Positions 5,462 to 58,450 of a stretch of 64,000 nucleotides of DNA are shown here, one piece after another. Source of the stretch: Thermoanaerobacteraceae bacterium (lineage in GTDB: Bacteria; Bacillota; JADQBR01); contig JACDOG010000001.1 in the NCBI GenBank assembly GCA_017656305.1, positions 1-64,000 on the forward strand. The letters run 5' to 3'. Position 1 is the first letter of the stretch. Every line of letters begins with the position of its first letter. The notes under the pieces were generated by a model. The model did no database searches. It saw only the letters and a program-made list of their open reading frames with translations, and was not told where the DNA came from. Position numbers and translations under genes: made by a program.

Positions 5462-7477
5462 TTGCGCGGATTTAATGGGCCAGCTGCAAACCGGTTGTTG
5501 CTGGTTGGATATTTACTGGTATTTATGATAGTGCTGTCCGGCTGCGGGCTGCCGCCGCTGCCAAAACCGCAGATTCCCGAAACCACCATCCTGTTGGATA
5601 TTAACGGCAGGGAAATTGGTGCTCTCTTTGAAGAAAACCGGATTGTCGTCTCCGGTGAGCAGATACCGGACAGCATGCGGAAGGCCATTGTGGCTGTGGA
5701 AGACGAGCGGTTTTACCGGCACCAAGGCTTTGACCTGCTGGGTATAGCCCGTGCTTTGTACCGCAATATCAGGGCGTGGGATATAGTAGAAGGGGGCAGC
5801 ACCTTAACCCAGCAGCTGGCCAAAAACCTCTACCTGACGCAGAAGCGGACACTATCGCGAAAAATAAAGGAAGCGCTGCTGACCGTACAACTGGAAAGAA
5901 CTTATACGAAAACGGAAATTCTTGACATGTACCTGAATCAGGTCTATTTTGGCCAAGGGGCATATGGTGTAGAGGCGGCTGCCAGGCGGTATTTTAATAA
6001 ATCGGCTAGGGACCTGACTCTCTGGGAAAGTGCCATGCTGGCGGCGTTACCCAGGGCGCCAAGCTATTATGACCCGTACAAGCGGCCGGAAGTAGTAAAA
6101 AAGCGCAGGGATTTTGTCCTCGGTAAGATGGCGGAGTTAAATTTTATCAGTGACAAGCAGAAAGAGTTTGCCCAGCGCCAGCCGCTGGTAGTAGCACCCA
6201 GGGAAAACAAGCAGCAGGCCCCCTATTTTGTCCAGGAAGTAATCAAAAGACTTACGGAACGTTTTCCTGAAGAATTTATCTACCGGGGCGGTTTGAAAGT
6301 ATATACTTCGCTGGATTTGGACATGCAGCATGCTGCGGAAAGAGCGGTGGCGGAGGTTCTGTCCTCACAGGACCCGGAGTTGGAGGCGGCACTGGTGGCC
6401 ATTGATAACAAAACGGGGTATGTTAAAGCACTGGTTGGCGGGCGGGACTTCAACAAAAGCCAGTTTAACAGAGCGCTGACCCCTCACCAGCCGGGCTCGG
6501 CCATGAAGCCATTCCTGTACACCGCAGCAATTGACAGGGGATACACGCAGGCCAGCATGATAAAATGTGAGCCAGTGGAATATAAGTTGCCTGGTGGCGA
6601 GACCTACAAGCCCGGTGATTACGGGGATACTCCGTATCATTACCGCAACTTCACCTTGAAGGAGGCGCTGCAGCGTTCTGATAACGTGGTTGCCGTGAGA
6701 TTGAACAACTTCATGGGCCCCCAGGCTATGGTTGAGACGGCAAAGGAAATGGGGATTGAAACCCGGCTCCGGCCTTATCTGTCGCTACCCCTGGGCACTA
6801 TTGAAGTTACGCCCCTGGAAATGGCCCGAGCATATGCTACTCTGGCCAATCAAGGTATCAAGGTAGAGCCCATATTTATTGTCAAGGTGGTCGATGAAAA
6901 TGGTAATATTTTATTGGAAAACAGGCCGCAGCGTGAGGTGGTTCTATCCAAAAGCACGGCATATATCGTTATGGATATGATGCAGTCAGTACTGCAGCCG
7001 GGAGGGACCGCTGTCAACATCCGGCGCTACATTAGTCGCCCTGCAGCGGGCAAGACCGGTACCACCAACGAATTTCGTGATGCCTGGTTTGCCGGATTTA
7101 CTCCGGAGCTTTCCGCTGCAGTATACGTGGGATTTGATGACAAGCGCCCGGTTTGGATACCCGGGGGAATAGTAGCGGGACCCATTTGGGGCAAATTTAT
7201 GGCCGGTGCGCTTAAAAATGTACCGGTGACCAGCTTTCCCGTCCCGCAAAACATTGTTAAGGTAAAAATTTGCCTGGATTCCGGGTTGCGGGCTACGGAG
7301 TACTGCCCGAGGGTAATGACCATGAGTTTTGTCAGGGGGACAGAGCCCCAGGAGTGGGATACTTCCCACAACCCCCCGTGGAGCTGGCGGGAGGAAAGTG
7401 AACCGGATGACAGGGAGCCCGGTGCCGGTTTGCCGTGGAAAGAGCTGCTGGACAGGATAATTAACGGGCGGCCGTAA
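5462..7477 (+). CDS. Class A penicillin-binding protein (transglycosylase/transpeptidase) with a lipobox-like N-terminus
   Basis: A 671-residue bifunctional peptidoglycan synthase. The GT51 domain has the catalytic Glu80 in EDERFYRHQGFD and GGSTLTQQLAKN near 111-122. The transpeptidase domain has the nucleophile Ser346 in GSAMKP, SDN at 406-408 and KTG at 531-533. It acts on the outer face of the membrane, polymerising lipid II and crosslinking strands. The N-terminal hydrophobic segment ends in LSGC (25-28), a perfect lipobox, where class A PBPs normally have an uncleaved anchor. TTG at 5462 follows a G-rich site. It looks like the PBP1A/PbpF group. Confidence 0.93.
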   Translation: MRGFNGPAANRLLLVGYLLVFMIVLSGCGLPPLPKPQIPETTILLDINGREIGALFEENRIVVSGEQIPDSMRKAIVAVEDERFYRHQGFDLLGIARALYRNIRAWDIVEGGSTLTQQLAKNLYLTQKRTLSRKIKEALLTVQLERTYTKTEILDMYLNQVYFGQGAYGVEAAARRYFNKSARDLTLWESAMLAALPRAPSYYDPYKRPEVVKKRRDFVLGKMAELNFISDKQKEFAQRQPLVVAPRENKQQAPYFVQEVIKRLTERFPEEFIYRGGLKVYTSLDLDMQHAAERAVAEVLSSQDPELEAALVAIDNKTGYVKALVGGRDFNKSQFNRALTPHQPGSAMKPFLYTAAIDRGYTQASMIKCEPVEYKLPGGETYKPGDYGDTPYHYRNFTLKEALQRSDNVVAVRLNNFMGPQAMVETAKEMGIETRLRPYLSLPLGTIEVTPLEMARAYATLANQGIKVEPIFIVKVVDENGNILLENRPQREVVLSKSTAYIVMDMMQSVLQPGGTAVNIRRYISRPAAGKTGTTNEFRDAWFAGFTPELSAAVYVGFDDKRPVWIPGGIVAGPIWGKFMAGALKNVPVTSFPVPQNIVKVKICLDSGLRATEYCPRVMTMSFVRGTEPQEWDTSHNPPWSWREESEPDDREPGAGLPWKELLDRIINGRP

Positions 7478-7560
7478 TAGTAGGGTTTTGCTGGTTGGCA
7501 GGAGATAAACCTGCCAACAGCGAAATCAAAGGAAGAAGTTGGGTGTCAGGGAGGGATTGT

Positions 7561-8307
7561 ATGGATTACCAACAGCGATTAACCCGAGCAAAAAAACTTT
7601 TGGAACAATCCAAGAGGGTTTTTGCCCTTACCGGAGCGGGAATCAGTACCGAAAGCGGCATTCCGGACTACCGCAGTCCCGGAACCGGCTTATGGGAAAA
7701 GGTAAACCCTTTGAAAACAGCATCGGCCAGTGCCTTGCGGAACGACCCAGCAGAATTTTATCGCACCACCATTGCACAGTGGCGAGAATTCAGCAAAGCT
7801 GAACCCAATGCCGGTCACTATGCACTTAAGGAACTTGAAGAAAACGGCTATATTCTCGGTATCATCACTCAGAATATTGACGGACTGCACCTTAAAGCAG
7901 GTTCTCAAAGCGTGCTGGAAGTACACGGTCACCTGCGCACGGCCCGCTGTATGCAGTGCGAGAACCGGGTCCTCTTTGAAGAGATTACCAGACAACTGGA
8001 TGCGGGGACCAATCCGCCGCGGTGCGCCAAGTGTTCCGGGGTGCTGCGTCCGGATGTGGTGTTGTTTGAAGACCCCATGTCCGAGGATTTCTTAAAGGCC
8101 TCAAAGGTGCTATCCGGGTGTGACCTGTTGCTGGTAATTGGCACCAGTCTTCAGGTTTACCCGGTGGCAACTCTACCGCAGCTGGCTAAGAGGCTGATCA
8201 TCATCAATAAGATGCCGACACCATATGATAATCAGGCGGAACTTATCTTCAGGGAAAGCATCGGCCAGGTGTTGACCGACTTGAAGAATTTATGCTTGGT
8301 AGATTAG
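7561..8307 (+). CDS. NAD-dependent protein deacylase, sirtuin (SIR2) family
   Basis: A 248-residue sirtuin. The NAD-binding motifs GAGISTESGIPDYRS, QNIDGLH and GTSLQVYP are all present, with a catalytic His in VHGH. A structural zinc site is formed by CMQC and CAKC. It removes acyl groups from lysines using NAD; acetyl-CoA and propionyl-CoA synthetases are common targets. ATG at 7561 is chosen because GGGAGGG precedes it. It lies 83 bp after the PBP gene, possibly co-transcribed. It fits a cell with high acyl-CoA flux, but the partner is unknown. Confidence 0.93.
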   Translation: MDYQQRLTRAKKLLEQSKRVFALTGAGISTESGIPDYRSPGTGLWEKVNPLKTASASALRNDPAEFYRTTIAQWREFSKAEPNAGHYALKELEENGYILGIITQNIDGLHLKAGSQSVLEVHGHLRTARCMQCENRVLFEEITRQLDAGTNPPRCAKCSGVLRPDVVLFEDPMSEDFLKASKVLSGCDLLLVIGTSLQVYPVATLPQLAKRLIIINKMPTPYDNQAELIFRESIGQVLTDLKNLCLVD

Positions 8308-50295: not shown

Positions 50296-51222
50296 GTGAC
50301 GAAAGTAGCTGTGTTATACGGCGGTTTTTCTGCAGAACGGGAAGTTTCACTGCGAACCGGTGCAGCAGTTTATGAAGCCTTGTTAGAGGCCAATTATTCC
50401 GCCCACCTGATTGACGTTGATCATAACGTTATGGACAATATAAAAAAGGTGAATCCTGACGTGGCTTTTATTGCTTTACACGGAAAAGGCGGGGAGGACG
50501 GAGCTATTCAAGGGCTCCTAGAAACTCTCGGTATTCCGTACACCGGCCCCGGTATTTTGGCCAGCGCCATGTCCATGAACAAGATTATAACCAAACAGAT
50601 TCTGCAAAACAAGGGTATTCCCACCGCACCCTTCGCAACAGTTAATGTAAACGATGATTTAACAGCCCGTGCCCAGCAGATACGCCGGGAAATACCGGGG
50701 AAGCTGGTTGTAAAGGCTCCCAACCAGGGGTCAACCATCGGCATTTATTTTGTGGAGCCGGAAGCGGACTTGGTAGCGGTCATGAAAAAAGCCTTTCAAT
50801 ACGACCGGACCATCCTGGTAGAAAAGTTTATTCCGGGTACAGAAGTTACTGCCTCGTTATTGGGCAACGAAGACCCGCAGGTACTGCCTTTGATTGAAAT
50901 TGTATCGCATACGGGAGTCTATGACTACAAGGCCAAATATACCAAAGGTCTCAGTGAACATATTATTCCGGCGCGCGTTTCCGATGCAGCAGCAAAAAAG
51001 GTGGAAAGGTACTCCAAAGAAACTTTTAAGGCTTTGTTCTGCCAGGGTTTGGCCCGGGTAGACTTCATCATTGATGAAAATGAAGAACCATACCTGCTGG
51101 AGGTAAACACCATGCCCGGTATGACTGAAACCAGCCTGTTTCCCGATGCCGCCAGGGCTGCAGGCATCAGTTTTCCCCAGTTGGTCAGCAGGATTGTCCA
51201 ACTGGCCCTTGAAAAAATATGA
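50296..51222 (+). CDS. ddl: D-alanine--D-alanine ligase
   Basis: A 308-residue ATP-grasp ligase making D-Ala-D-Ala for peptidoglycan. VLYGGFSAEREVSLRTG, ALHGKGGEDGAIQG, APNQGSTIGI and the C-terminal RVDFIIDENEEPYLLEVNTMPG, split here by the metal-binding residues, are all present. GTG at 50296 follows AAAGGAGG. It is the short type of about 310 residues. Confidence 0.96.
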   Translation: MTKVAVLYGGFSAEREVSLRTGAAVYEALLEANYSAHLIDVDHNVMDNIKKVNPDVAFIALHGKGGEDGAIQGLLETLGIPYTGPGILASAMSMNKIITKQILQNKGIPTAPFATVNVNDDLTARAQQIRREIPGKLVVKAPNQGSTIGIYFVEPEADLVAVMKKAFQYDRTILVEKFIPGTEVTASLLGNEDPQVLPLIEIVSHTGVYDYKAKYTKGLSEHIIPARVSDAAAKKVERYSKETFKALFCQGLARVDFIIDENEEPYLLEVNTMPGMTETSLFPDAARAAGISFPQLVSRIVQLALEKI

Positions 51223-51373: not shown

Positions 51374-51511
51374 ATAAAATTTAGTTTAGTTTAGTTTCAA
51401 AAGTTCAAAAATTATCTCTTTTTAGGAAGGATTTTTTAAACTCTTAGCGAACATAATTTATAATATAAGTTGTGAAAGCACTAACGACAACTTAATTAGG
51501 AAAGAAAGCAA

Positions 51512-51586
51512 AAAGTCCGGAGACTTTAAGTCCAGAGGCCAGCAAGTAATGCTGGCTTTTTGCATCTAAACAAGCCAGCCATTTTT
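51512..51586 (+). promoter_or_regulatory. Leader element E1: attenuator-like hairpins before the first Com-like gene
   Basis: AAAGTC-CGGA-GACTTT forms a small hairpin (51512-51527), followed by AAGTCC and then GCCAGC / GCTGGC (51538-51543 with 51551-51556) and five T, a terminator. GCTGGCTT (51551-51558) can instead pair with AAGCCAGC (51572-51579), which is followed by ATTTTT, so two exclusive terminator-like folds exist. The GACTTTAAGTCC core recurs at 55626 and 55896. Confidence 0.6.
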
Positions 51587-51750
51587 ATGTTTAATGACTG
51601 TGTAAATTACCACGGCCCAAAGAAGTCCCGGACAAATTTCCCGAAAAAGGAGGGATAGGGACTCGGCAACAGATTACTTTATTACAAAAAAAAAAGCGCG
51701 TATCCTGAAGGTTTTTTGTGAGGAGAAAGGGAAATTTTTAGAAGGGGGAA

Positions 51751-51951
51751 GTGTTCAAGGGCTTGTTGGTTATTACGGGTCAGTTGTTCGCCGTAGTCTT
51801 CGGTCTTGCATCAGGGATGTATGTTACCAGATACTGTATTGGCTGGGCAGACGGGTTGCTGTCTTCTGTTTCCACATTGGTGTTAGGTTTAGCAATTACT
51901 ACAGCAGCATTCATTTCCGCAATATTTATTGCTTGGCTGCCTTTTATGTAA
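51751..51951 (+). CDS. Small two-helix membrane protein
   Basis: 66 residues with helices at about 4-25 (LLVITGQLFAVVFGLASGM) and 38-62 (VSTLVLGLAITTAAFISAIF). GTG at 51751 follows AGAAGGGGG. It leads the cytochrome module and may assist its assembly or anchoring; no family recognised. Confidence 0.65.
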   Translation: MFKGLLVITGQLFAVVFGLASGMYVTRYCIGWADGLLSSVSTLVLGLAITTAAFISAIFIAWLPFM

Positions 51952-51973
51952 ATTTTCAGGAAAGGAGGATAGT

Positions 51974-52156
51974 ATGGAAAAAGAAAAAGTTGAGCAACTG
52001 GAAAATCTACGCTGCCAATGTGGAAAAATCGTGTGTCAACTTGACGAAAAGATTGTTGTAATCAAATGCCGCCATTGCAAAAGATTTATTGTTATAAATA
52101 CCAAAGGAATTGAAACTACATCTGGGGGTGAGAAAAAGGTCCAATATCTGTCATAA
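51974..52156 (+). CDS. Com-like zinc-knuckle protein 1
   Basis: 60 residues. The core LRCQCGKIVCQ, then IKCRHCKRFIVINTKG is shared with three paralogues at 55444, 55693 and 56159. The spacing of the Cys pairs and the basic CKR segment resemble phage Mu Com, a small zinc-finger protein that binds mom mRNA and opens its start site. ATG at 51974 follows AAAGGAGG. It lies 64 bp before the first heptaheme cytochrome gene, so a regulatory role at RNA level is likely but unproven. Confidence 0.75.
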   Translation: MEKEKVEQLENLRCQCGKIVCQLDEKIVVIKCRHCKRFIVINTKGIETTSGGEKKVQYLS

Positions 52157-52220
52157 AATTATTATTGTCCAACCACAATTAGCACAAAAAATCATTCTAT
52201 GAGAAAGGGGTGACCCCAAA

Positions 52221-53078
52221 ATGAACTCGAGAAAGATACTGCTGGTAGTACTAGTGGGGATATTAACAATTTTAGTAGGTACTACAGTTGCCGCAGCTTC
52301 CACAGATGCTGCTGCAAAAAATCAAAAATGCCTGCAGTGTCACGGGAACAAGGATTTTTCCATAAAGCATGATGGTGAAACAATACCCCTTTATGTAGAT
52401 GTGGAACAATACCAGCAATCTATTCATGGTACAAACAGTTGTGAAACCTGTCATGCTGATGTCCAGAACATACCGCACAAAAACGTGGTCTACGGTGAAG
52501 AACTTGAAAGAAAAATAGATCAGCGCTGCCAAACCTGTCACGGAAATGTAAACAAAGAATACCGGGATAGTATCCACGGTATGTTGCAGGCTGAAGGAAA
52601 AGAAACGGCAGGTTGTTCAGATTGTCATGGGTCTCATAATATCCGCAAAAAGGAAGATCCGTTATCTCTTGTAAACCGCACTAATATTACCGAAACATGT
52701 ACCAAGTGTCATGACGGTCATATAGCTGAAAGCTATGCTGAAAGCTTCCACGGCAAGGCAGTATCGCTTGGCAGTACCAAGGCGGCAACATGCGTTGACT
52801 GCCACACAGGACATAGCATTTTAGGACCGGAAGATCCCAAGTCAACGGTTCATAAGGACAACATTCCTGAAACATGTGCCTCCTGCCACAATCAGGCACA
52901 ACCCAATTTTGCCGAAGGTGTAGAACACTGGACTTTTGAACCAGACGGACCAGGTAAGCCCATGTACTATACCCTGAAATTCTTCACCTGGTTGACAATA
53001 ATTACCATTGTTCTCTTGATTATCCATATTGAGTTGGAACTGTTCCGTCGCTACAGAGATGCTAGACGCGGCAGCTAA
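52221..53078 (+). CDS. Heptaheme c-type cytochrome, membrane-anchored (module 1)
   Basis: 285 residues: a signal sequence (KILLVVLVGILTILVG), then seven CxxCH heme sites (CLQCH, CETCH, CQTCH, CSDCH, CTKCH, CVDCH, CASCH) and a C-terminal transmembrane helix (FFTWLTIITIVLLIIHIELE). It is exposed outside the membrane. The cytochrome b gene follows 29 bp later, so it probably accepts electrons from the quinone pool. It is a paralogue of the protein at 56657, with matching spacing of the heme sites. Confidence 0.93.
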   Translation: MNSRKILLVVLVGILTILVGTTVAAASTDAAAKNQKCLQCHGNKDFSIKHDGETIPLYVDVEQYQQSIHGTNSCETCHADVQNIPHKNVVYGEELERKIDQRCQTCHGNVNKEYRDSIHGMLQAEGKETAGCSDCHGSHNIRKKEDPLSLVNRTNITETCTKCHDGHIAESYAESFHGKAVSLGSTKAATCVDCHTGHSILGPEDPKSTVHKDNIPETCASCHNQAQPNFAEGVEHWTFEPDGPGKPMYYTLKFFTWLTIITIVLLIIHIELELFRRYRDARRGS

Positions 53079-53107
53079 ATATAGCTTGAGAGAGGAGGGA
53101 AGGAAAA

Positions 53108-53863
53108 TTGTCTAATCTCAACAAAAATAGAAAATTTGAGCGTTTCAACATACACCAGAGATTACAGCACATTATGATGTTTACCAGTTTCATAATGTGT
53201 ACCGTAACAGGTTTACCTATCAAGTATAACCACTCATGGTGGGCTCCCAAGGTAACTGCACTATTTGGCGGATTTGACAACATGTTTACGGTGCATTTAA
53301 TCGGTGCCACCATTATGCTGGCCAGTGCCGCATATCACTTGATCTATTTGGTGGTTTATCCGCTAGTAAAACGAGAAATCAGTACAGCTGCATTTCCAAC
53401 CTTTAAGGATGTAACTGATTTGGTTCATAACATGAAATATCTCATAGGGTTAACCGATAAACCGCCGCAGTTTGATAGATACTCCTACAAGGAAAAGTTT
53501 GATTACTGGGCAGTATTCTGGGGTATGGCCATCATGGGTGGTTCTGGTTTGATGATGTGGTTCCCTGATATTGCGGCAACATACTTCCCACGGTGGTTGA
53601 TTGAATCTACGCGGGTGGCTCATAGCGACGAGGCAATGCTGGCTATTTTGGCCATATTCATTTGGCATTTTTACAATGTTCACTTCAGTCCTACTTTCTT
53701 CCCAATGAACTTTGTATGGTTCCACGGCAAGATGTCGCATGAATTAATGGAACATGAGCACCCGGTAGAATTAGCACGCATCTTAGAGGAAGAAAAGAAA
53801 GGTTCCAGCAAGGATGCAGATACCGTTGGTAGCAAGAAACCTTCCTCAAATTTGAAAACGTAA
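53108..53863 (+). CDS. Cytochrome b subunit (module 1), lacking the C-terminal helix
   Basis: 251 residues, cytochrome b561/FdnI-like. Candidate heme-ligand His residues lie in HQRLQHIMMF, FTVHLIGATI, AAYHLIYLV and IFIWHFYNVHF, on four membrane helices. Its C-terminus ends in a polar tail (GSKKPSSNLKT) after ELMEHEHPVELARI, where the paralogue at 57617 continues into one more helix; that helix is encoded separately at 53879. TTG at 53108 follows GAGGAGGGA. Likely the quinone-reactive partner of the cytochrome c. Confidence 0.9.
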   Translation: MSNLNKNRKFERFNIHQRLQHIMMFTSFIMCTVTGLPIKYNHSWWAPKVTALFGGFDNMFTVHLIGATIMLASAAYHLIYLVVYPLVKREISTAAFPTFKDVTDLVHNMKYLIGLTDKPPQFDRYSYKEKFDYWAVFWGMAIMGGSGLMMWFPDIAATYFPRWLIESTRVAHSDEAMLAILAIFIWHFYNVHFSPTFFPMNFVWFHGKMSHELMEHEHPVELARILEEEKKGSSKDADTVGSKKPSSNLKT

Positions 53864-53878
53864 GTGGGAGGGAAAATA

Positions 53879-53989
53879 ATGAGTGGTAAGCACAGCAATA
53901 ACAGAGCATTAATTGTTACGGAAATGATTTTATACGCCATAATTCTTGTTTGGTTTCTCAAAGCATTTTTACCTATAGGTTTAATGTAA
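53879..53989 (+). CDS. 36-residue membrane peptide, detached tail of cytochrome b
   Basis: SNNRALIVTEMILYAIILVW followed by a short hydrophobic end. It aligns with the last 35 residues of the paralogous cytochrome b at 57617 (SRALIIFELVVYVSVFVLL). It starts 15 bp after the cytochrome b stop behind GGGAGG. It is therefore a gene split from, or not yet fused to, its partner, and should still insert as the final helix of the complex. Confidence 0.75.
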   Translation: MSGKHSNNRALIVTEMILYAIILVWFLKAFLPIGLM

Positions 53990-54009
53990 TAGGAAGGTGA
54001 AAAATTAAT

Positions 54010-55101
54010 ATGATGTCCACACCACACACACGCATACCTGTCAGGCAAAAAAGGCTTGGCAGGCGTATTAAGCAGTTTTTGCTGGTAGCCTGTATAGTAG
54101 TGATAGGCTATGCATTGCTGTTCTTTTCCAATCACATTAAAGATCCCGATGCCTGTTTAGGCTGTCATGTAATGCAACCACAGGTTAAAACCTGGCAGGT
54201 TACGGCACATAACAGATTTGATTGTATTACCTGTCACAAAAACGTGTCTGTAGCAACCTTTGTTTTTAGGGAATTTACCGGGCGTTACAGACTACCCGTG
54301 GAGAATGAGAAGTTTATTCAGGACCAGATTTGTCTAGACTGCCACAGTAAAGAGCGAATTGTCACACCGCCGGGTGACTTGTTGATTCCTCACGGCCTGC
54401 ATATGCAAAAAGGAATTGACTGCATAGACTGTCACGAAAATGTTGTTCATGCCAACGTTAACGACGAGCTTATAGTTAAACAGGGCGTCGCACCCGAGGC
54501 CGTAACACTGGAAATGGCAGAAAAGCTAGCCACTTTCGGTAATAGAATAGAAATGGATAAGTGTATGCAGTGCCACAACGGGGCAAAAGCACCCCGGGAG
54601 TGCAGTACCTGCCACACTGACAAGGAAGCTCCGGAGTCCCATAATAGAGAAAAATGGGGTACGGAACACGGGCGTGAAGCCTTTTTGGATATTACCAGTT
54701 GCAACCAGTGTCATGAATATAACGTTGCCAAGAAGAAAGCATATGATGAAACTGCTGATGCACTGGTAAATGTGCAGCGTGAAGCACGCACCAACGGTTT
54801 TTGTTATAACTGCCACATCCAACGTCCGGTAACCCACACCAAAGTTTACTCCGTAGACCACCCCGAAAAAGCTCGGAAGTTTTCGCAGGGATGCCTGGCA
54901 TGCCATAACCGGGAAAAAGAACCGAAAAATGCCGTAGCACCGCCAACTACCAGCGTTTACTGCGAGCAGTGTCATTTCATATTACACCAGTCCGACTGGG
55001 AAAGAAAACACCCGGATAAAGTTCGTGCAGATGGCGATACACAGTGCTATCAGTGTCACGCTGCAACCAGTTGTGCCGCGTGTCACTCCCAAAAACGGTA
55101 A
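54010..55101 (+). CDS. Dodecaheme NapC/NirT-like c-type cytochrome
   Basis: 363 residues. An N-terminal anchor (FLLVACIVVIGYALLFF) is followed by twelve CxxCH sites (CLGCH, CITCH, CLDCH, CIDCH, CMQCH, CSTCH, CNQCH, CYNCH, CLACH, CEQCH, CYQCH, CAACH). DPDACLGCHVMQPQVKTW and the first four sites are NapC/NrfH-like, the type that oxidises menaquinol. The extra eight hemes suggest a fused electron conduit. ATG at 54010 (or 54013). It ends the first module, before a terminator. Confidence 0.92.
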   Translation: MMSTPHTRIPVRQKRLGRRIKQFLLVACIVVIGYALLFFSNHIKDPDACLGCHVMQPQVKTWQVTAHNRFDCITCHKNVSVATFVFREFTGRYRLPVENEKFIQDQICLDCHSKERIVTPPGDLLIPHGLHMQKGIDCIDCHENVVHANVNDELIVKQGVAPEAVTLEMAEKLATFGNRIEMDKCMQCHNGAKAPRECSTCHTDKEAPESHNREKWGTEHGREAFLDITSCNQCHEYNVAKKKAYDETADALVNVQREARTNGFCYNCHIQRPVTHTKVYSVDHPEKARKFSQGCLACHNREKEPKNAVAPPTTSVYCEQCHFILHQSDWERKHPDKVRADGDTQCYQCHAATSCAACHSQKR

Positions 55102-55120
55102 ACTGAGAAACACCTGTTGA

Positions 55121-55147
55121 GTGGCAAAGTATTATTGCCACTTTTTC
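55121..55147 (+). terminator. Terminator of cytochrome module 1
   Basis: GTGGCAA (55121-55127) / TTGCCAC (55135-55141) followed by TTTTTC. Confidence 0.85.
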
Positions 55148-55243
55148 TTTTGGGAAAAATTTACAACTTGTTTTTAATCCTGGGAAGGAATTTTTAAAAA
55201 GCCCGCGAATAAGATATAGTAAAGAAGCAAACGGCAAGAAAGT

Positions 55244-55272
55244 TTGTGAACAAACGTACAATTGTGTATACA
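55244..55272 (+). promoter_or_regulatory. Promoter of cytochrome module 2
   Basis: TTGTGA (55244-55249), 17-bp spacer, TATACA (55267-55272); it lies upstream of the E2 hairpin and the second Com-like gene. Confidence 0.6.
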
Positions 55273-55340
55273 ATTTAAAAGGAAAAAATTTAAAGACCGG
55301 TATCCTGTAGGGTGAGTCAAAGAATGGTATATATTCTACG

Positions 55341-55364
55341 GCTAGTCCTAGAGGGCTAGCTTTT
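55341..55364 (+). promoter_or_regulatory. Leader element E2: hairpin before the second Com-like gene
   Basis: GCTAGTCC-TAGA-GGGCTAGC forms an 8-bp stem with one G-T pair, then TTTT: terminator-like. It lies 80 bp before the Com-like gene at 55444. Its upstream part differs from the GACTTTAAGTC core of E1, E3 and E4. Confidence 0.55.
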
Positions 55365-55443
55365 AAAATTTTTAGAGCAAGAGGGTGGGGTGAGAGAGAG
55401 CTTCTTATAACTGGTATAGGAAAAGGTGGGGTGGGGATTTTAT

Positions 55444-55611
55444 ATGAAAGACTTACGCTGTGTTTGCAATAAAATTATATGTCAGGTAGACGGCAATAAT
55501 ATTGTCATCAAGTGCCGTCACTGTAAAAGGTACATTATTATTCGAACCAAAGGTACTGTTAAGGTAGAATCCAATATCAAAGATGAAAAAGTGAATATCG
55601 GGGTAGGGTAA
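55444..55611 (+). CDS. Com-like zinc-knuckle protein 2
   Basis: 55 residues: LRCVCNKIICQ and IKCRHCKRYIIIRTKG, then a charged tail. It shares the five Cys positions and CKR of its three paralogues. ATG at 55444 lies behind a G-rich site. It is bracketed by hairpins E2 and E3. RNA binding is inferred from Mu Com. Confidence 0.75.
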   Translation: MKDLRCVCNKIICQVDGNNIVIKCRHCKRYIIIRTKGTVKVESNIKDEKVNIGVG

Positions 55612-55617
55612 AGTTTT

Positions 55618-55669
55618 AGTCTATAGACTTTAAGTCAAAAGGCTAGTCTTGAAGGGAGGCTAGCCTTTT
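55618..55669 (+). promoter_or_regulatory. Leader element E3: attenuator-like hairpin before the third Com-like gene
   Basis: AGTC-TATA-GACT (55618-55629) runs into the core GACTTTAAGTC (55626-55636). AAAAGGCTAG (55637-55646) / CTAGCCTTTT (55660-55669) then forms a perfect 10-bp terminator stem. The gene's Shine-Dalgarno lies 10 bp further on. Confidence 0.65.
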
Positions 55670-55692
55670 GCTGTTTGGAAAGGAGGCTGATT

Positions 55693-55851
55693 ATGAAGGA
55701 TTTTCGATGTACGTGTAAGAAAATTGTATGTCAAATCAAGGGCGATATGGTAATTATCAAGTGCCGCCACTGCAAGCGTTACATTCATATTCATACCAAA
55801 GGACTAATTGATGCACGTTTTAAGATCGATGATGAAGTGCAGATTTTGTAA
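55693..55851 (+). CDS. Com-like zinc-knuckle protein 3
   Basis: 52 residues: FRCTCKKIVCQ and IKCRHCKRYIHIHTKG, then LIDARFKIDDEVQIL. AAAGGAGG precedes the ATG by 8 bases. It is below usual gene-length cutoffs but has the same core and spacing as the other three copies. Confidence 0.75.
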   Translation: MKDFRCTCKKIVCQIKGDMVIIKCRHCKRYIHIHTKGLIDARFKIDDEVQIL

Positions 55852-55885
55852 ACTGCCGTTAAAACAGCATAAGATTTCTCGTCCG

Positions 55886-55946
55886 AAGTCCGGGAGACTT
55901 TAAGTCCCAAAGGCTGGTGACCAATGACATGTTGGTACCAGCCTTT
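55886..55946 (+). promoter_or_regulatory. Leader element E4: attenuator-like hairpin between Com-like genes 3 and 4
   Basis: AAGTC-CGGGA-GACTT (55886-55900) overlaps the core GACTTTAAGTCC (55896-55907). AAAGGCTGGT (55909-55918) / ACCAGCCTTT (55937-55946) is a perfect 10-bp stem followed by T. Confidence 0.65.
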
Positions 55947-55999
55947 TATGTTCTTACAACTATAATGTTACAGGTCTGTGTCTGAGGGCACTTTAGCCA

Positions 56000-56109
56000 A
56001 AAAGACTAGCACCATTAAATTGGAGAATATCCGTTTAAAACATTAACCTTCGTAGGAAAAGTTTTTTGGGGCTACAAAGTTATGGGGTTCAAGTGGAAGC
56101 TAGTCTTTT
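56000..56109 (+). promoter_or_regulatory. Leader element E5: long-loop hairpin before the fourth Com-like gene
   Basis: AAAAGACTAGC (56000-56010) and GCTAGTCTTTT (56099-56109) are perfectly complementary across an 88-base loop, followed by GATTTTAAT. CACTTTAGCC just upstream is a weak echo of the core found in E1, E3 and E4. Confidence 0.5.
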
Positions 56110-56158
56110 GATTTTAATGTCTCGGTCAAAAAATTTTTTTCAAAGGAGGTTGTTGCTG

Positions 56159-56350
56159 TTGAATAACTTCTTTCGCTGCCAGTGTAAAAAGATTGTTTGC
56201 CAAATTGAACAGGACACCATCATCATCAAGTGCCGTCACTGTAAACGTTACATTCACATTAACACCAACGGAATAGAAAACATTGAGTTCAAGCTTACCG
56301 ATGACGTCAACAGCGATGAATCACAGGTTATTAAGTTTACCGGCAAATAG
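56159..56350 (+). CDS. Com-like zinc-knuckle protein 4
   Basis: 63 residues from TTG at 56159 (AAAGGAGG nine bases upstream): FRCQCKKIVCQ and IKCRHCKRYIHINTNG, then an acidic tail (DDVNSDES). Closest to copy 3 in the second knuckle. It is followed by a 42-residue membrane peptide gene and the second heptaheme cytochrome. Confidence 0.75.
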   Translation: MNNFFRCQCKKIVCQIEQDTIIIKCRHCKRYIHINTNGIENIEFKLTDDVNSDESQVIKFTGK

Positions 56351-56407
56351 ACACTTGGCTTAACTTCAAGTCGCTAGCCCAAAATTCGAAAGAAAGAGGT
56401 GAGACTT

Positions 56408-56536
56408 ATGTTACGAATGCCTTTGGGTAATTTTTTAACGTACTTCTTAACCGCTTGGTTCATCGCAGCTTTTGCCCTGATTACGTTTTCCGGAGTATTC
56501 TTCGTCGGCACCCTGGTTTACCACTTAATTTTCTAG
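56408..56536 (+). CDS. 42-residue membrane peptide, duplicate of the cytochrome c N-terminal anchor
   Basis: LGNFLTYFLTAWFIAAF and LITFSGVFFVG align with the first 40 residues of the heptaheme cytochrome at 56657 (LGNYFAYMFTALFVLTF, LIIFSGVFFG). AAAGAGGTGAG precedes the ATG. It is either a decayed duplicate or a small subunit that pairs with the membrane part of the complex. Confidence 0.7.
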   Translation: MLRMPLGNFLTYFLTAWFIAAFALITFSGVFFVGTLVYHLIF

Positions 56537-56656
56537 ATCAGCATCAGCATTGACCACAAATCCACTAAGACTCATTCCAAAGGCCTTCCCAGCCTTGAGA
56601 GGTGAGCTGGAGATCTGCCGGGATAAATAGCCACCTGAAAGAAAGGAGTGAGTTTT

Positions 56657-57601
56657 ATGTGGAAAAATAAGCTGGGTAATTATTTTGCCTACATGTTTAC
56701 AGCTTTGTTTGTCCTGACCTTTTGCTTGATCATATTTTCCGGAGTGTTTTTCGGGCTATTTCTCTTCAGCAGGTCTGCTTTTGCTTCCGATGCAGCAGTT
56801 GTCAATGAAAAGTGTTTCCAGTGTCACGGCCAGAAAGGATTTACTGTTAAGGTAAACGGTGAGATAAAATCTCTTTACGTTTCCAGAGACATTTATCAGA
56901 GCTCAATGCACGGTACCAACGCCTGTACCAGTTGCCACCAGGAAGGAGTGGAGGAAATTCCTCACAAAAACCCCATTTACGGTTTGGAATTAATGCAAAG
57001 CATTACAGAATCCTGTCAAACCTGCCATGCAGACATTGCCAAAGATTACAAAAGCAGTGTACACGGTAAACTAGCACAGCAACGGGAAAATACGGCATAC
57101 TGTAGCGATTGTCACGGAACCCACGATATTTTGAAAAAGGAAAATCCCCGGGCACTCAGCTACCGGTTAAACGTTGCGGAAAACTGCGCACGGTGCCACC
57201 AGGGAGACGTGTGGGAAACTTATAATTACTCGTTCCACGGGAAAGCTGAAAAATTAGGTTATGCTGAAGCGGCAACTTGTACCGATTGCCATGGAACGCA
57301 TAATATACTGGCCGCAGATGACCCGCAGTCCATGGTTTCGGCAGCCAATAGGCCGGAAACCTGTGCTACCTGTCATTTCTATGCCAGGGACGGCTTTGCC
57401 AACGGGACGGAACATGTCACCCCCTGGGATAAAGAAAAGGCATTTCCGCTCTATATCGTTTGGAAAATCTTCATAGTTCTTATCTTATTTGATGCAACTA
57501 AAGACGGTACCATCGTCATCTTTGAGCTGCTCCGTCAGTTGTGCAGCTTAAATAAATCCAAAAAGCAGGAGAAAACATCCCAAAAGAGTCTTAAGGCGTA
57601 A
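56657..57601 (+). CDS. Heptaheme c-type cytochrome, membrane-anchored (module 2)
   Basis: 314 residues: an N-terminal hydrophobic segment (LGNYFAYMFTALFVLTF, then SGVFFGLFLF), seven CxxCH sites (CFQCH, CTSCH, CQTCH, CSDCH, CARCH, CTDCH, CATCH) and a C-terminal hydrophobic stretch (LYIVWKIFIVLILF). Paralogue of 52221, but with a different N-terminal anchor and a basic C-terminal tail (KSKKQEKTSQKSLK). ATG at 56657 follows AAAGGAG; a GTG at 56648 is in frame. Confidence 0.93.
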   Translation: MWKNKLGNYFAYMFTALFVLTFCLIIFSGVFFGLFLFSRSAFASDAAVVNEKCFQCHGQKGFTVKVNGEIKSLYVSRDIYQSSMHGTNACTSCHQEGVEEIPHKNPIYGLELMQSITESCQTCHADIAKDYKSSVHGKLAQQRENTAYCSDCHGTHDILKKENPRALSYRLNVAENCARCHQGDVWETYNYSFHGKAEKLGYAEAATCTDCHGTHNILAADDPQSMVSAANRPETCATCHFYARDGFANGTEHVTPWDKEKAFPLYIVWKIFIVLILFDATKDGTIVIFELLRQLCSLNKSKKQEKTSQKSLKA

Positions 57602-57616
57602 AAAGGAGGGAGTATT

Positions 57617-58450
57617 ATGGATGCTCGCAGGCAGGTACTGCCGAGAGAAATCATGCGGTTTAACAGGCACCAGCGTTACCAGCATTTTCTGCTGATGGTC
57701 AGTGTGCTCATGCTAATTATAACGGGTTTTCCCATTAAATACGCCCAGTGGCCCTGGGCTCAGGTAGTAGTAACCCTGTTCGGCAGTTTCAAAACCATGT
57801 TTATGATGCATTTAACCTTTGGTGTTCTCATGCTGATCAGCGGCGTGTATCATGTAATCTGGCTGATAGACCTCGCTATCAAGAGAAACCTGCCCATGAG
57901 TATGGTTCCGGCCATGAAGGACGTCAAGGACGCCATCCATCACGCCAAGTACCTCCTGGGAATTGTCAAGGAACCGCCACAGTACGGCAGGTACACCTAC
58001 CTGGAAAAATTTGAATACCTAGCGGTATTTTGGGGAATCATCGTCATGGGTGGTTCGGGTCTAATGTTGTGGTTTCCCGAGATTTTTGGCGTGCTGCCTC
58101 GCTGGGTACTGCAGATAGTAAGGATTGCCCATACCAACGAAGCCTTTGTGGCCATGCTGGCAATTGTCATCGGACATTTCTTTGCGGTTCACTTTAACCC
58201 GCACGTGTTTCCGACAAGCAAGGTATGGCTGACGGGAAACATTTCCCGCGAGCACATGAAAGCGGAACACCCTCTGGAATATCAGGAGTGGCTGGAAAAG
58301 CAACAGGTTGATGAAGGTGTAGAGCTTGTGGAGAAGGAGCATCACAGCAAATTTGCCAAGAGCAGGGCTTTAATCATCTTCGAGCTGGTCGTCTACGTCA
58401 GCGTGTTTGTCTTACTTCTTATTACGTTTGTACCGCTGTTGTTTGTCTAG
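57617..58450 (+). CDS. Cytochrome b subunit (module 2), full-length
   Basis: 277 residues. Same block order as 53108: RFNRHQRYQHFLLMV, MMHLTFGVLMLI, GVYHVIWLID and IGHFFAVHFNPHVFP, plus a fifth C-terminal helix (ALIIFELVVYVSVFVLLLI). It supplies the quinone-reactive heme b part for the heptaheme cytochrome just upstream. ATG at 57617 follows AAGGAGGGAG. It is the reference that shows the split in module 1. Confidence 0.92.
   Translation: MDARRQVLPREIMRFNRHQRYQHFLLMVSVLMLIITGFPIKYAQWPWAQVVVTLFGSFKTMFMMHLTFGVLMLISGVYHVIWLIDLAIKRNLPMSMVPAMKDVKDAIHHAKYLLGIVKEPPQYGRYTYLEKFEYLAVFWGIIVMGGSGLMLWFPEIFGVLPRWVLQIVRIAHTNEAFVAMLAIVIGHFFAVHFNPHVFPTSKVWLTGNISREHMKAEHPLEYQEWLEKQQVDEGVELVEKEHHSKFAKSRALIIFELVVYVSVFVLLLITFVPLLFV

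Follow-up and report, generated by a model that had tools for sequence, protein, structure and literature searches.

The 64,000-nucleotide stretch of a Thermoanaerobacteraceae bacterium analysed here (contig JACDOG010000001.1, positions 1 to 64,000; hereafter the window) carries two cytochrome operons in line, into which genes for four small zinc-ribbon proteins resembling the Com protein of phage Mu and a series of RNA leader elements (E1 to E5) are woven. RNA element and Com-like protein family most likely act together, by transcription antitermination, and from our point of view it is probable that the elements represent protein-dependent transcription attenuators with the Com-like proteins as their trans-acting antiterminators. 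An RNA-level switch made of repeated RNA elements and RNA-binding-type proteins had been proposed from the letters of the window alone (the sequence-only reading), and this proposal is supported by both the covariation and the co-occurrence described below.

The element follows the consensus aAGUC-CRG-A-GAC-U(N3)A-A-GUC-CAG-A-GGCcagc and is continued by a terminator, the 5' arm of which is formed by the last segment. The GAGACTTTAAGTC core that had been noticed in three of the leaders is indeed present in those of E1, E3 and E4 and, even with one mismatch allowed, nowhere else in the genome, and all five T-run hairpins lie where the sequence-only reading had placed them. Upon an unfiltered search of the 64 kb, the model R3 singled out the same three elements (Table 1; E-values of the covariance models are rough) with the next match at 0.37, and the divergent leaders of E2 (55310-55366) and E5 (55976-56112) fell below the model. 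The same motif is found repeatedly in the leaders of related loci: across the window and 26 loci, the covariance model R1 detected 73 copies up to E=1, none of which lies on the strand opposite to the Com genes, and R3 gave 140 matches up to E=1, including 111 with E<0.001. Most confident copies adjoin Com-like genes and heptaheme cytochromes, and the copies frequently stand in tandem, forming 26 arrays with two to four members each. Since a generic terminator scan of the window was not above chance (6 found vs 5.3 expected), the case rests on these homologs. A free de novo scan for a nested hairpin followed by a terminator gave too much noise (89 vs 77 on the opposite strand) and was dropped. 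One related locus, L117, carries a degenerate element between its Com genes, which suggests that the model misses some elements.

None of the curated covariance models of Rfam 15 matched the element, and no publication linking such elements to cytochromes or Thermincola was found in the literature, mainly open-access, that was searched. The RNA element is conserved and, relative to Rfam 15 and the open-access literature, apparently undescribed, in agreement with the initial impression that no system of such form had been described.

The proposed protein family holds as well. All four proteins (52-63 aa, starts at 51974, 55444, 55693 and 56159) share the cores RCxCxKIxCQ and IKCRHCKR and are the only Com-like matches in the whole 2.7-Mb genome. 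The first knuckle is CxC in all family members, with CxCGK, CxCKK and CxCNK as paralog types among the window proteins. The likeness to phage Mu Com is real but remote: in a profile comparison (hhalign), the family matched Mu Com with 95.4% probability and 48% identity over 33 residues of the zinc ribbon, in which the two are homologous, and the PHROG gpCom profile (PHROG 13819) matched 29 of 50 family members (best 1.3e-5). The PF10122 (Zn_ribbon_Com) profile matched a single member of the 50, weakly and short of its curated cut-off (E=0.0048), an NCBIfam scan recognised none as a Com zinc ribbon, a sequence search with the Com-like protein returned weak zinc-finger matches only, and its predicted fold (pLDDT 78) found no significant match in a PDB structure search. 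A viral origin is disfavoured, as no Com-like relative was found in viral contigs and phage records queried with Com-like protein 2 gave no match; ten element-pattern matches in viral contigs, all lacking a terminator, look like chance. When the alignment of the four proteins was used to scan 84,980 species genomes, 26 loci were obtained, all Bacillota-type, and in most related loci one to four Com-like genes stand directly upstream of a heptaheme cytochrome. Related genomes carry one to five Com-like copies each.

Covariation in homologous leaders had been set beforehand as a test of the proposed switch. The alignment used for it (125 copies from 59 loci) was built with the sequence-only model R2 and contained no hand-fitted structure; the seed of R2 came from a regular expression that constrained some letters, and the covarying columns 6, 8, 16, 27, 33 and 35 were free in it. 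This model replaced a first test on a set selected by regular expression, which suffered from bias and hardly distinguished the nested from the local pairing. Most of the column pairs with top mutual information fall within one nested hairpin, in which segment 1 pairs with 4 (A:D) and segment 2 with 3 (B:C), the strongest being 8-33 (G-C/U-A), 16-27 and 6-35 (C-G/U-A), with 11-30, likewise within this hairpin, in fifth place. The nested pairs comprise GUC(3-5)/GGC(37-39), C6-G35, G8-C33, GAC(10-12)/GUC(29,30,32) and U16-A27, with a non-canonical position 7-34. In total, 95% of the cells are paired, and 54 double-sided changes were counted, whereas shuffled alignments gave 14.5 +/- 3.2 and slid controls no more than 11. 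The single unpaired A's are near-invariant (column 2, 110/112; column 9, 119/121; column 28, 119/125; column 36, 124/125), and the second repeat with its flanking A's is as conserved as the first. A local structure of two hairpins, as in ANTAR-type systems, was rejected as the covarying structure because its score showed no excess over shuffles (0.132 vs 0.129); this local pairing is probably the partner pairing of the OFF state. The tandem arrays might be taken to mean that the hairpins are plain intrinsic terminators whose shared letters reflect a duplicated repeat without regulatory meaning, yet we give this idea almost no credence in view of the compensatory changes, the conservation across 13 families, the strand and location of the copies and the unlinked copies upstream of unrelated genes.

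The upstream AAGTC that had been noted as able to pair with the core turned out to be part of a switch of four segments that retains both alternative pairings, with segment A complementary to B and D and segment C likewise complementary to B and D. Under a strict rule, 89 of 111 copies have an intrinsic terminator with the 5' arm starting in segment D, compared to 3.9% at random positions, and most of the remaining 22 show a recognisable arm failing the rule's details. The terminator arm varies with compensating partners. Nested hairpin and terminator are mutually exclusive, and the terminator is the more stable of the two in 89/89 copies (on average -16.5 kcal/mol, vs -4.4 kcal/mol for the element segment). 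As the element segment is weak alone, something must stabilise the nested hairpin. When the window leaders are folded without the 3' arm, E2 to E5 form the nested hairpin and E1 two weak local hairpins; once the 3' arm is included, the terminator forms in all five.

The sequence-only reading had left open whether such a switch would operate by attenuation or by translation. Since the element overlaps the 5' arm of an intrinsic terminator, attenuation is favoured. It would be in line with Mu Com, which activates translation of the mom mRNA (PMC6483171), if the Com-like proteins acted on translation and the terminators were ordinary operon terminators, but the element is fused to the terminator arm and not to ribosome-binding sites, and is often separated from the next start codon by hundreds of bases, so that we regard this as very improbable.

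For an antitermination mechanism, the following sequence of events can be imagined. By default, A would pair with B and D with its downstream partner, so that an intrinsic terminator forms and the polymerase stops before the next gene (OFF). A Com-like protein, perhaps in two copies on the pseudo-symmetric site, would hold both CC-R-GAG repeats, and the resulting nested hairpin of A:D and B:C with its four unpaired A's would remove D from the terminator and let transcription continue (ON). With elements in series between the Com genes and the cytochromes, the Com-like proteins would regulate their own production along with that of the cytochromes, and in some genomes this control would extend to unlinked energy-metabolism operons. 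Direct binding of the protein to the RNA, its stoichiometry, the antitermination sign and the signal are what we infer; the sign is suggested by the second repeat, which is as conserved as the first and is located next to or within the terminator arm, where a protein holding both repeats should block the terminator. As for the signal, metal or the redox state at the Cys4 site would be no more than a guess.

The opposite sign is also conceivable, namely that leader-bound Com-like proteins promote termination as a negative feedback, clamping the A-B hairpin with its C-G-closed loop containing CC-R-GA. A-B complementarity is kept in most copies, and for Mu Com a preference for hairpins closed by a C-G pair was found (PMC6483171). 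However, A-B pairing covaries no more than chance, the second repeat and its flanking A's show the same conservation as the first, the subtype of the element involves both repeats, and a contact at the second repeat, next to or inside the terminator arm, should hinder termination, all of which makes a pro-termination role rather unlikely.

A partnership between element and protein is further indicated by their distribution among 399 genomes of the phylum, 43 of which have the protein and 29 the element: 27 carry both, 16 the protein only, two the element only and 354 neither. The co-occurrence that had been predicted thus holds for 27/29 element-bearing genomes (Fisher p=1.6e-28, uncorrected for shared ancestry), with 13 families having both, and the two exceptions are 61% and 63% complete relatives of genomes with element and protein. 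Regarding location, 86 of 108 copies have a Com gene in their vicinity. The other 22 do not, and such copies precede an L-lactate MFS transporter (NF049980, above cut-off), an AAA-ATPase/VWA operon, ATP synthase, a NifX-type protein with MinD-like ATPases, an NADH-dehydrogenase-like cluster, a small membrane protein followed by spoIIGA (L095) and another six-heme cytochrome with b561. Copies unlinked to Com genes need a diffusible trans-acting factor, for which the Com-like protein is the candidate present. The AAA-ATPase/VWA leaders (L091, L092, L096, L099, L100 and L102) have a third CC-N-GAG copy upstream of the element, and in the same leaders CGUC could pair with GACG.

Elements and paralogs are also matched by subtype. 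For the 70 elements with C6-G35/G8-C33 (type I), which typically carry CC-R-GAG twice, the nearest neighbouring protein is of the CxCGK type 58 times and never of the CxCKK type (0/70), whereas 17 of the 24 other elements have a CxCKK neighbour; of the six exceptions with CxCGK, three are truncated rows (p=5e-7, uncorrected for shared ancestry). The same matching is seen inside single genomes (the window, L001, L002 and L003) and is what matched protein-RNA pairs would give. We consider it unlikely that the element is a small-molecule riboswitch or the target of another protein, with Com-like proteins that act elsewhere and merely share the loci. The compact and highly conserved form of the element and the genomes that have Com homologs but no element would fit such a scenario, but it is at odds with the genome-wide co-occurrence, the restriction of unlinked copies to genomes with both partners, the subtype matching, the similarity of the repeats to the Com motif and the absence of a matching Rfam family.

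Several points weigh against antitermination by the Com-like proteins. Besides the rough E-values and the lack of a correction for shared ancestry in the co-occurrence, 16/43 protein-bearing genomes are without a confident element, and in L017, L019, L113, L114 and L128 a lone Com homolog is located directly downstream of ddl with no element or cytochrome nearby, so that the protein has other roles or targets there. (In the window, a ddl gene at 50296-51222 is also the upstream neighbour of the Com locus.) The difference between type I and type II may reflect few events, with paralog ancestry limiting independence. E1 on its own fails to adopt the nested hairpin, and since the C-G-closed loop of the A-B hairpin resembles a Com target, binding to that hairpin alone could favour termination. 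Lastly, the two published Com binding studies disagree on hairpin versus duplex and consequently do not decide between the local and the nested form.

The RNA motif selected by Mu Com, CC(N)2-3GAG, often occurs in two copies with an accessible GA (PMC6483171). The element, with CC-R-GAG (CC(N)1GAG) twice, comes close to this but is one base shorter. Both proteins are small Cys4 zinc ribbons with CxxCKR as second knuckle, but the first knuckle is CxxC in Mu Com and CxC here, the Com-like genes are bacterial and reside beside cytochromes instead of mom, and the apparent target is a terminator rather than a translation start.

Antitermination as a principle is already familiar from other systems; what is new is this protein and this RNA. 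In the BglG/LicT/SacY systems, a protein-stabilised hairpin, the ribonucleic antiterminator (RAT), overlaps a terminator, and copies flank the regulator's own gene. The RNA hairpin described here is likewise mutually exclusive with an intrinsic terminator, but the protein is a zinc ribbon, Pfam scans of the Com-like family revealed no CAT or PRD domains, and the RNA is unrelated to RAT, with no Rfam match. ANTAR-domain (EutV-type) antitermination employs two repeated RNA units, the second of which overlaps the terminator; in our case, covariation backs one nested hairpin instead of two separate ones, and no ANTAR protein was found in the loci examined. PyrR-type attenuators also have a UCCAGAG sequence in a switch over a terminator, but differ in structure, and no Rfam match was obtained here.

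If the proposed mechanism is true, both a protein family and an RNA family would join the known means of controlling transcription termination as new members, and the phage Mu Com protein would gain a bacterial context. For some mineral-breathing bacteria, it offers a candidate gene-control pair that would stop or release transcription of electron-transfer genes; no account of how multiheme cytochromes are controlled in Gram-positive metal reducers (Thermincola relatives) was found in the literature searched. The defined RNA element, protein family and list of target operons are directly testable, and the small protein-RNA pairs apparently have distinct specificities. One could speculate further, and we do so tentatively, that bacterial Com homologs form a new class of zinc-ribbon antiterminators whose paralog-RNA pairs (type I/CxCGK and type II/CxCKK) serve as serial gates that the polymerase must pass, with a dedicated protein setting each one, before the cytochromes of external electron transfer are made, with the Cys4 site possibly sensing metal or redox state.

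Table 1. Elements, terminators and genes of the two cytochrome operons in the window.
Feature	Position	Strand	Basis or remark
Element E1, type I	51513-51543	+	Model R3 E=1.5e-10, 50.1 bits; core identical in several related genomes
E1 segments	A 51515-51517, B 51522-51524, C 51530-51532, D 51537-51539	+	
E1 intrinsic terminator, 5' arm includes segment D	51535-51561	+	RNA fold -19.8 kcal/mol with 3' arm, z -3.6
Small membrane protein (66 aa), between E1 and first Com-like gene	51751-51951	+	ORF; no Pfam/NCBIfam match
Com-like protein 1, CxCGK type	51974-52156	+	Shared cores, genome scan, PHROG/Mu Com profiles
Heptaheme cytochrome c	52221-53078	+	Pfam Cytochrome_C7 and others; same gene 3' of Com-like genes in most related loci
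Cytochrome b561-type membrane subunit	53108-53863	+	Pfam PF01292
Multiheme cytochrome, Cytochrome_C7/c3-type domains	54010-55101	+	Pfam
Element E2, divergent, GUC-AAAG-AAU..AUU-CUAC-GGC	55310-55346	+	Nested hairpin alone -7.1; terminator with 3' arm -17.1; not called by R3
E2 terminator hairpin	55340-55366	+	T-run hairpin, RNA fold
Com-like protein 2, CxCNK type	55444-55611	+	Shared cores; PHROG gpCom 2.7e-5
Element E3, type II, UAUA/AAAA	55617-55647	+	R3 E=4.9e-8; nested hairpin is minimum-energy fold, z -2.7
E3 terminator	55637-55671	+	Fold -24.5 kcal/mol, z -4.4
Com-like protein 3, CxCKK type	55693-55851	+	Shared cores, genome scan
Element E4	55886-55918	+	R3 E=0.0013; nested hairpin is minimum-energy fold of truncated RNA
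E4 terminator	55909-55946	+	Fold -27.6 kcal/mol, z -4.6
Element E5, divergent, GUC-UGAG-GGC..GCC-AAAAA-GAC	55976-56010	+	A-D and B-C fully paired, C-D broken; nested fold -9.7
E5 long terminator-like hairpin with T-run	56000-56110	+	T-run hairpin, RNA fold
Com-like protein 4, CxCKK type, TTG start	56159-56350	+	Shared cores, genome scan
Second heptaheme cytochrome c	56657-57601	+	Pfam
Second cytochrome b561-type subunit	57617-58450	+	Pfam PF01292

The first operon of the window reads E1, small membrane protein, Com-like protein 1, heptaheme cytochrome, b561 subunit, a small ORF and multiheme cytochrome, and the second E2, Com-like protein 2, E3, Com-like protein 3, E4, E5, Com-like protein 4, a small ORF, heptaheme cytochrome and b561 subunit. 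A small membrane protein between element and Com gene is frequent, occurring also in L002, L010, L020 and L021; in L095, such a protein comes after an unlinked element and ahead of spoIIGA. The leader of E2 (55259-55340) shares an upstream GACC...GGGUGAGUC stretch, outside the element model, with the equivalent leader of L001. At the Com locus of L117 (~6560-7850), transposase-like ORFs separate an eight-heme cytochrome from its b561 gene. Upstream of the Com leaders, TTGTGA-type dyads are present in the window (51468-51493 and ~55243-55262, AAGTTGT...ACAACTT), with a perfect TGTGA-N6-TCACA in L004 (4331) and L024 (4928), which suggests that a CRP/FNR- or Rex-type regulator may act at the promoter.

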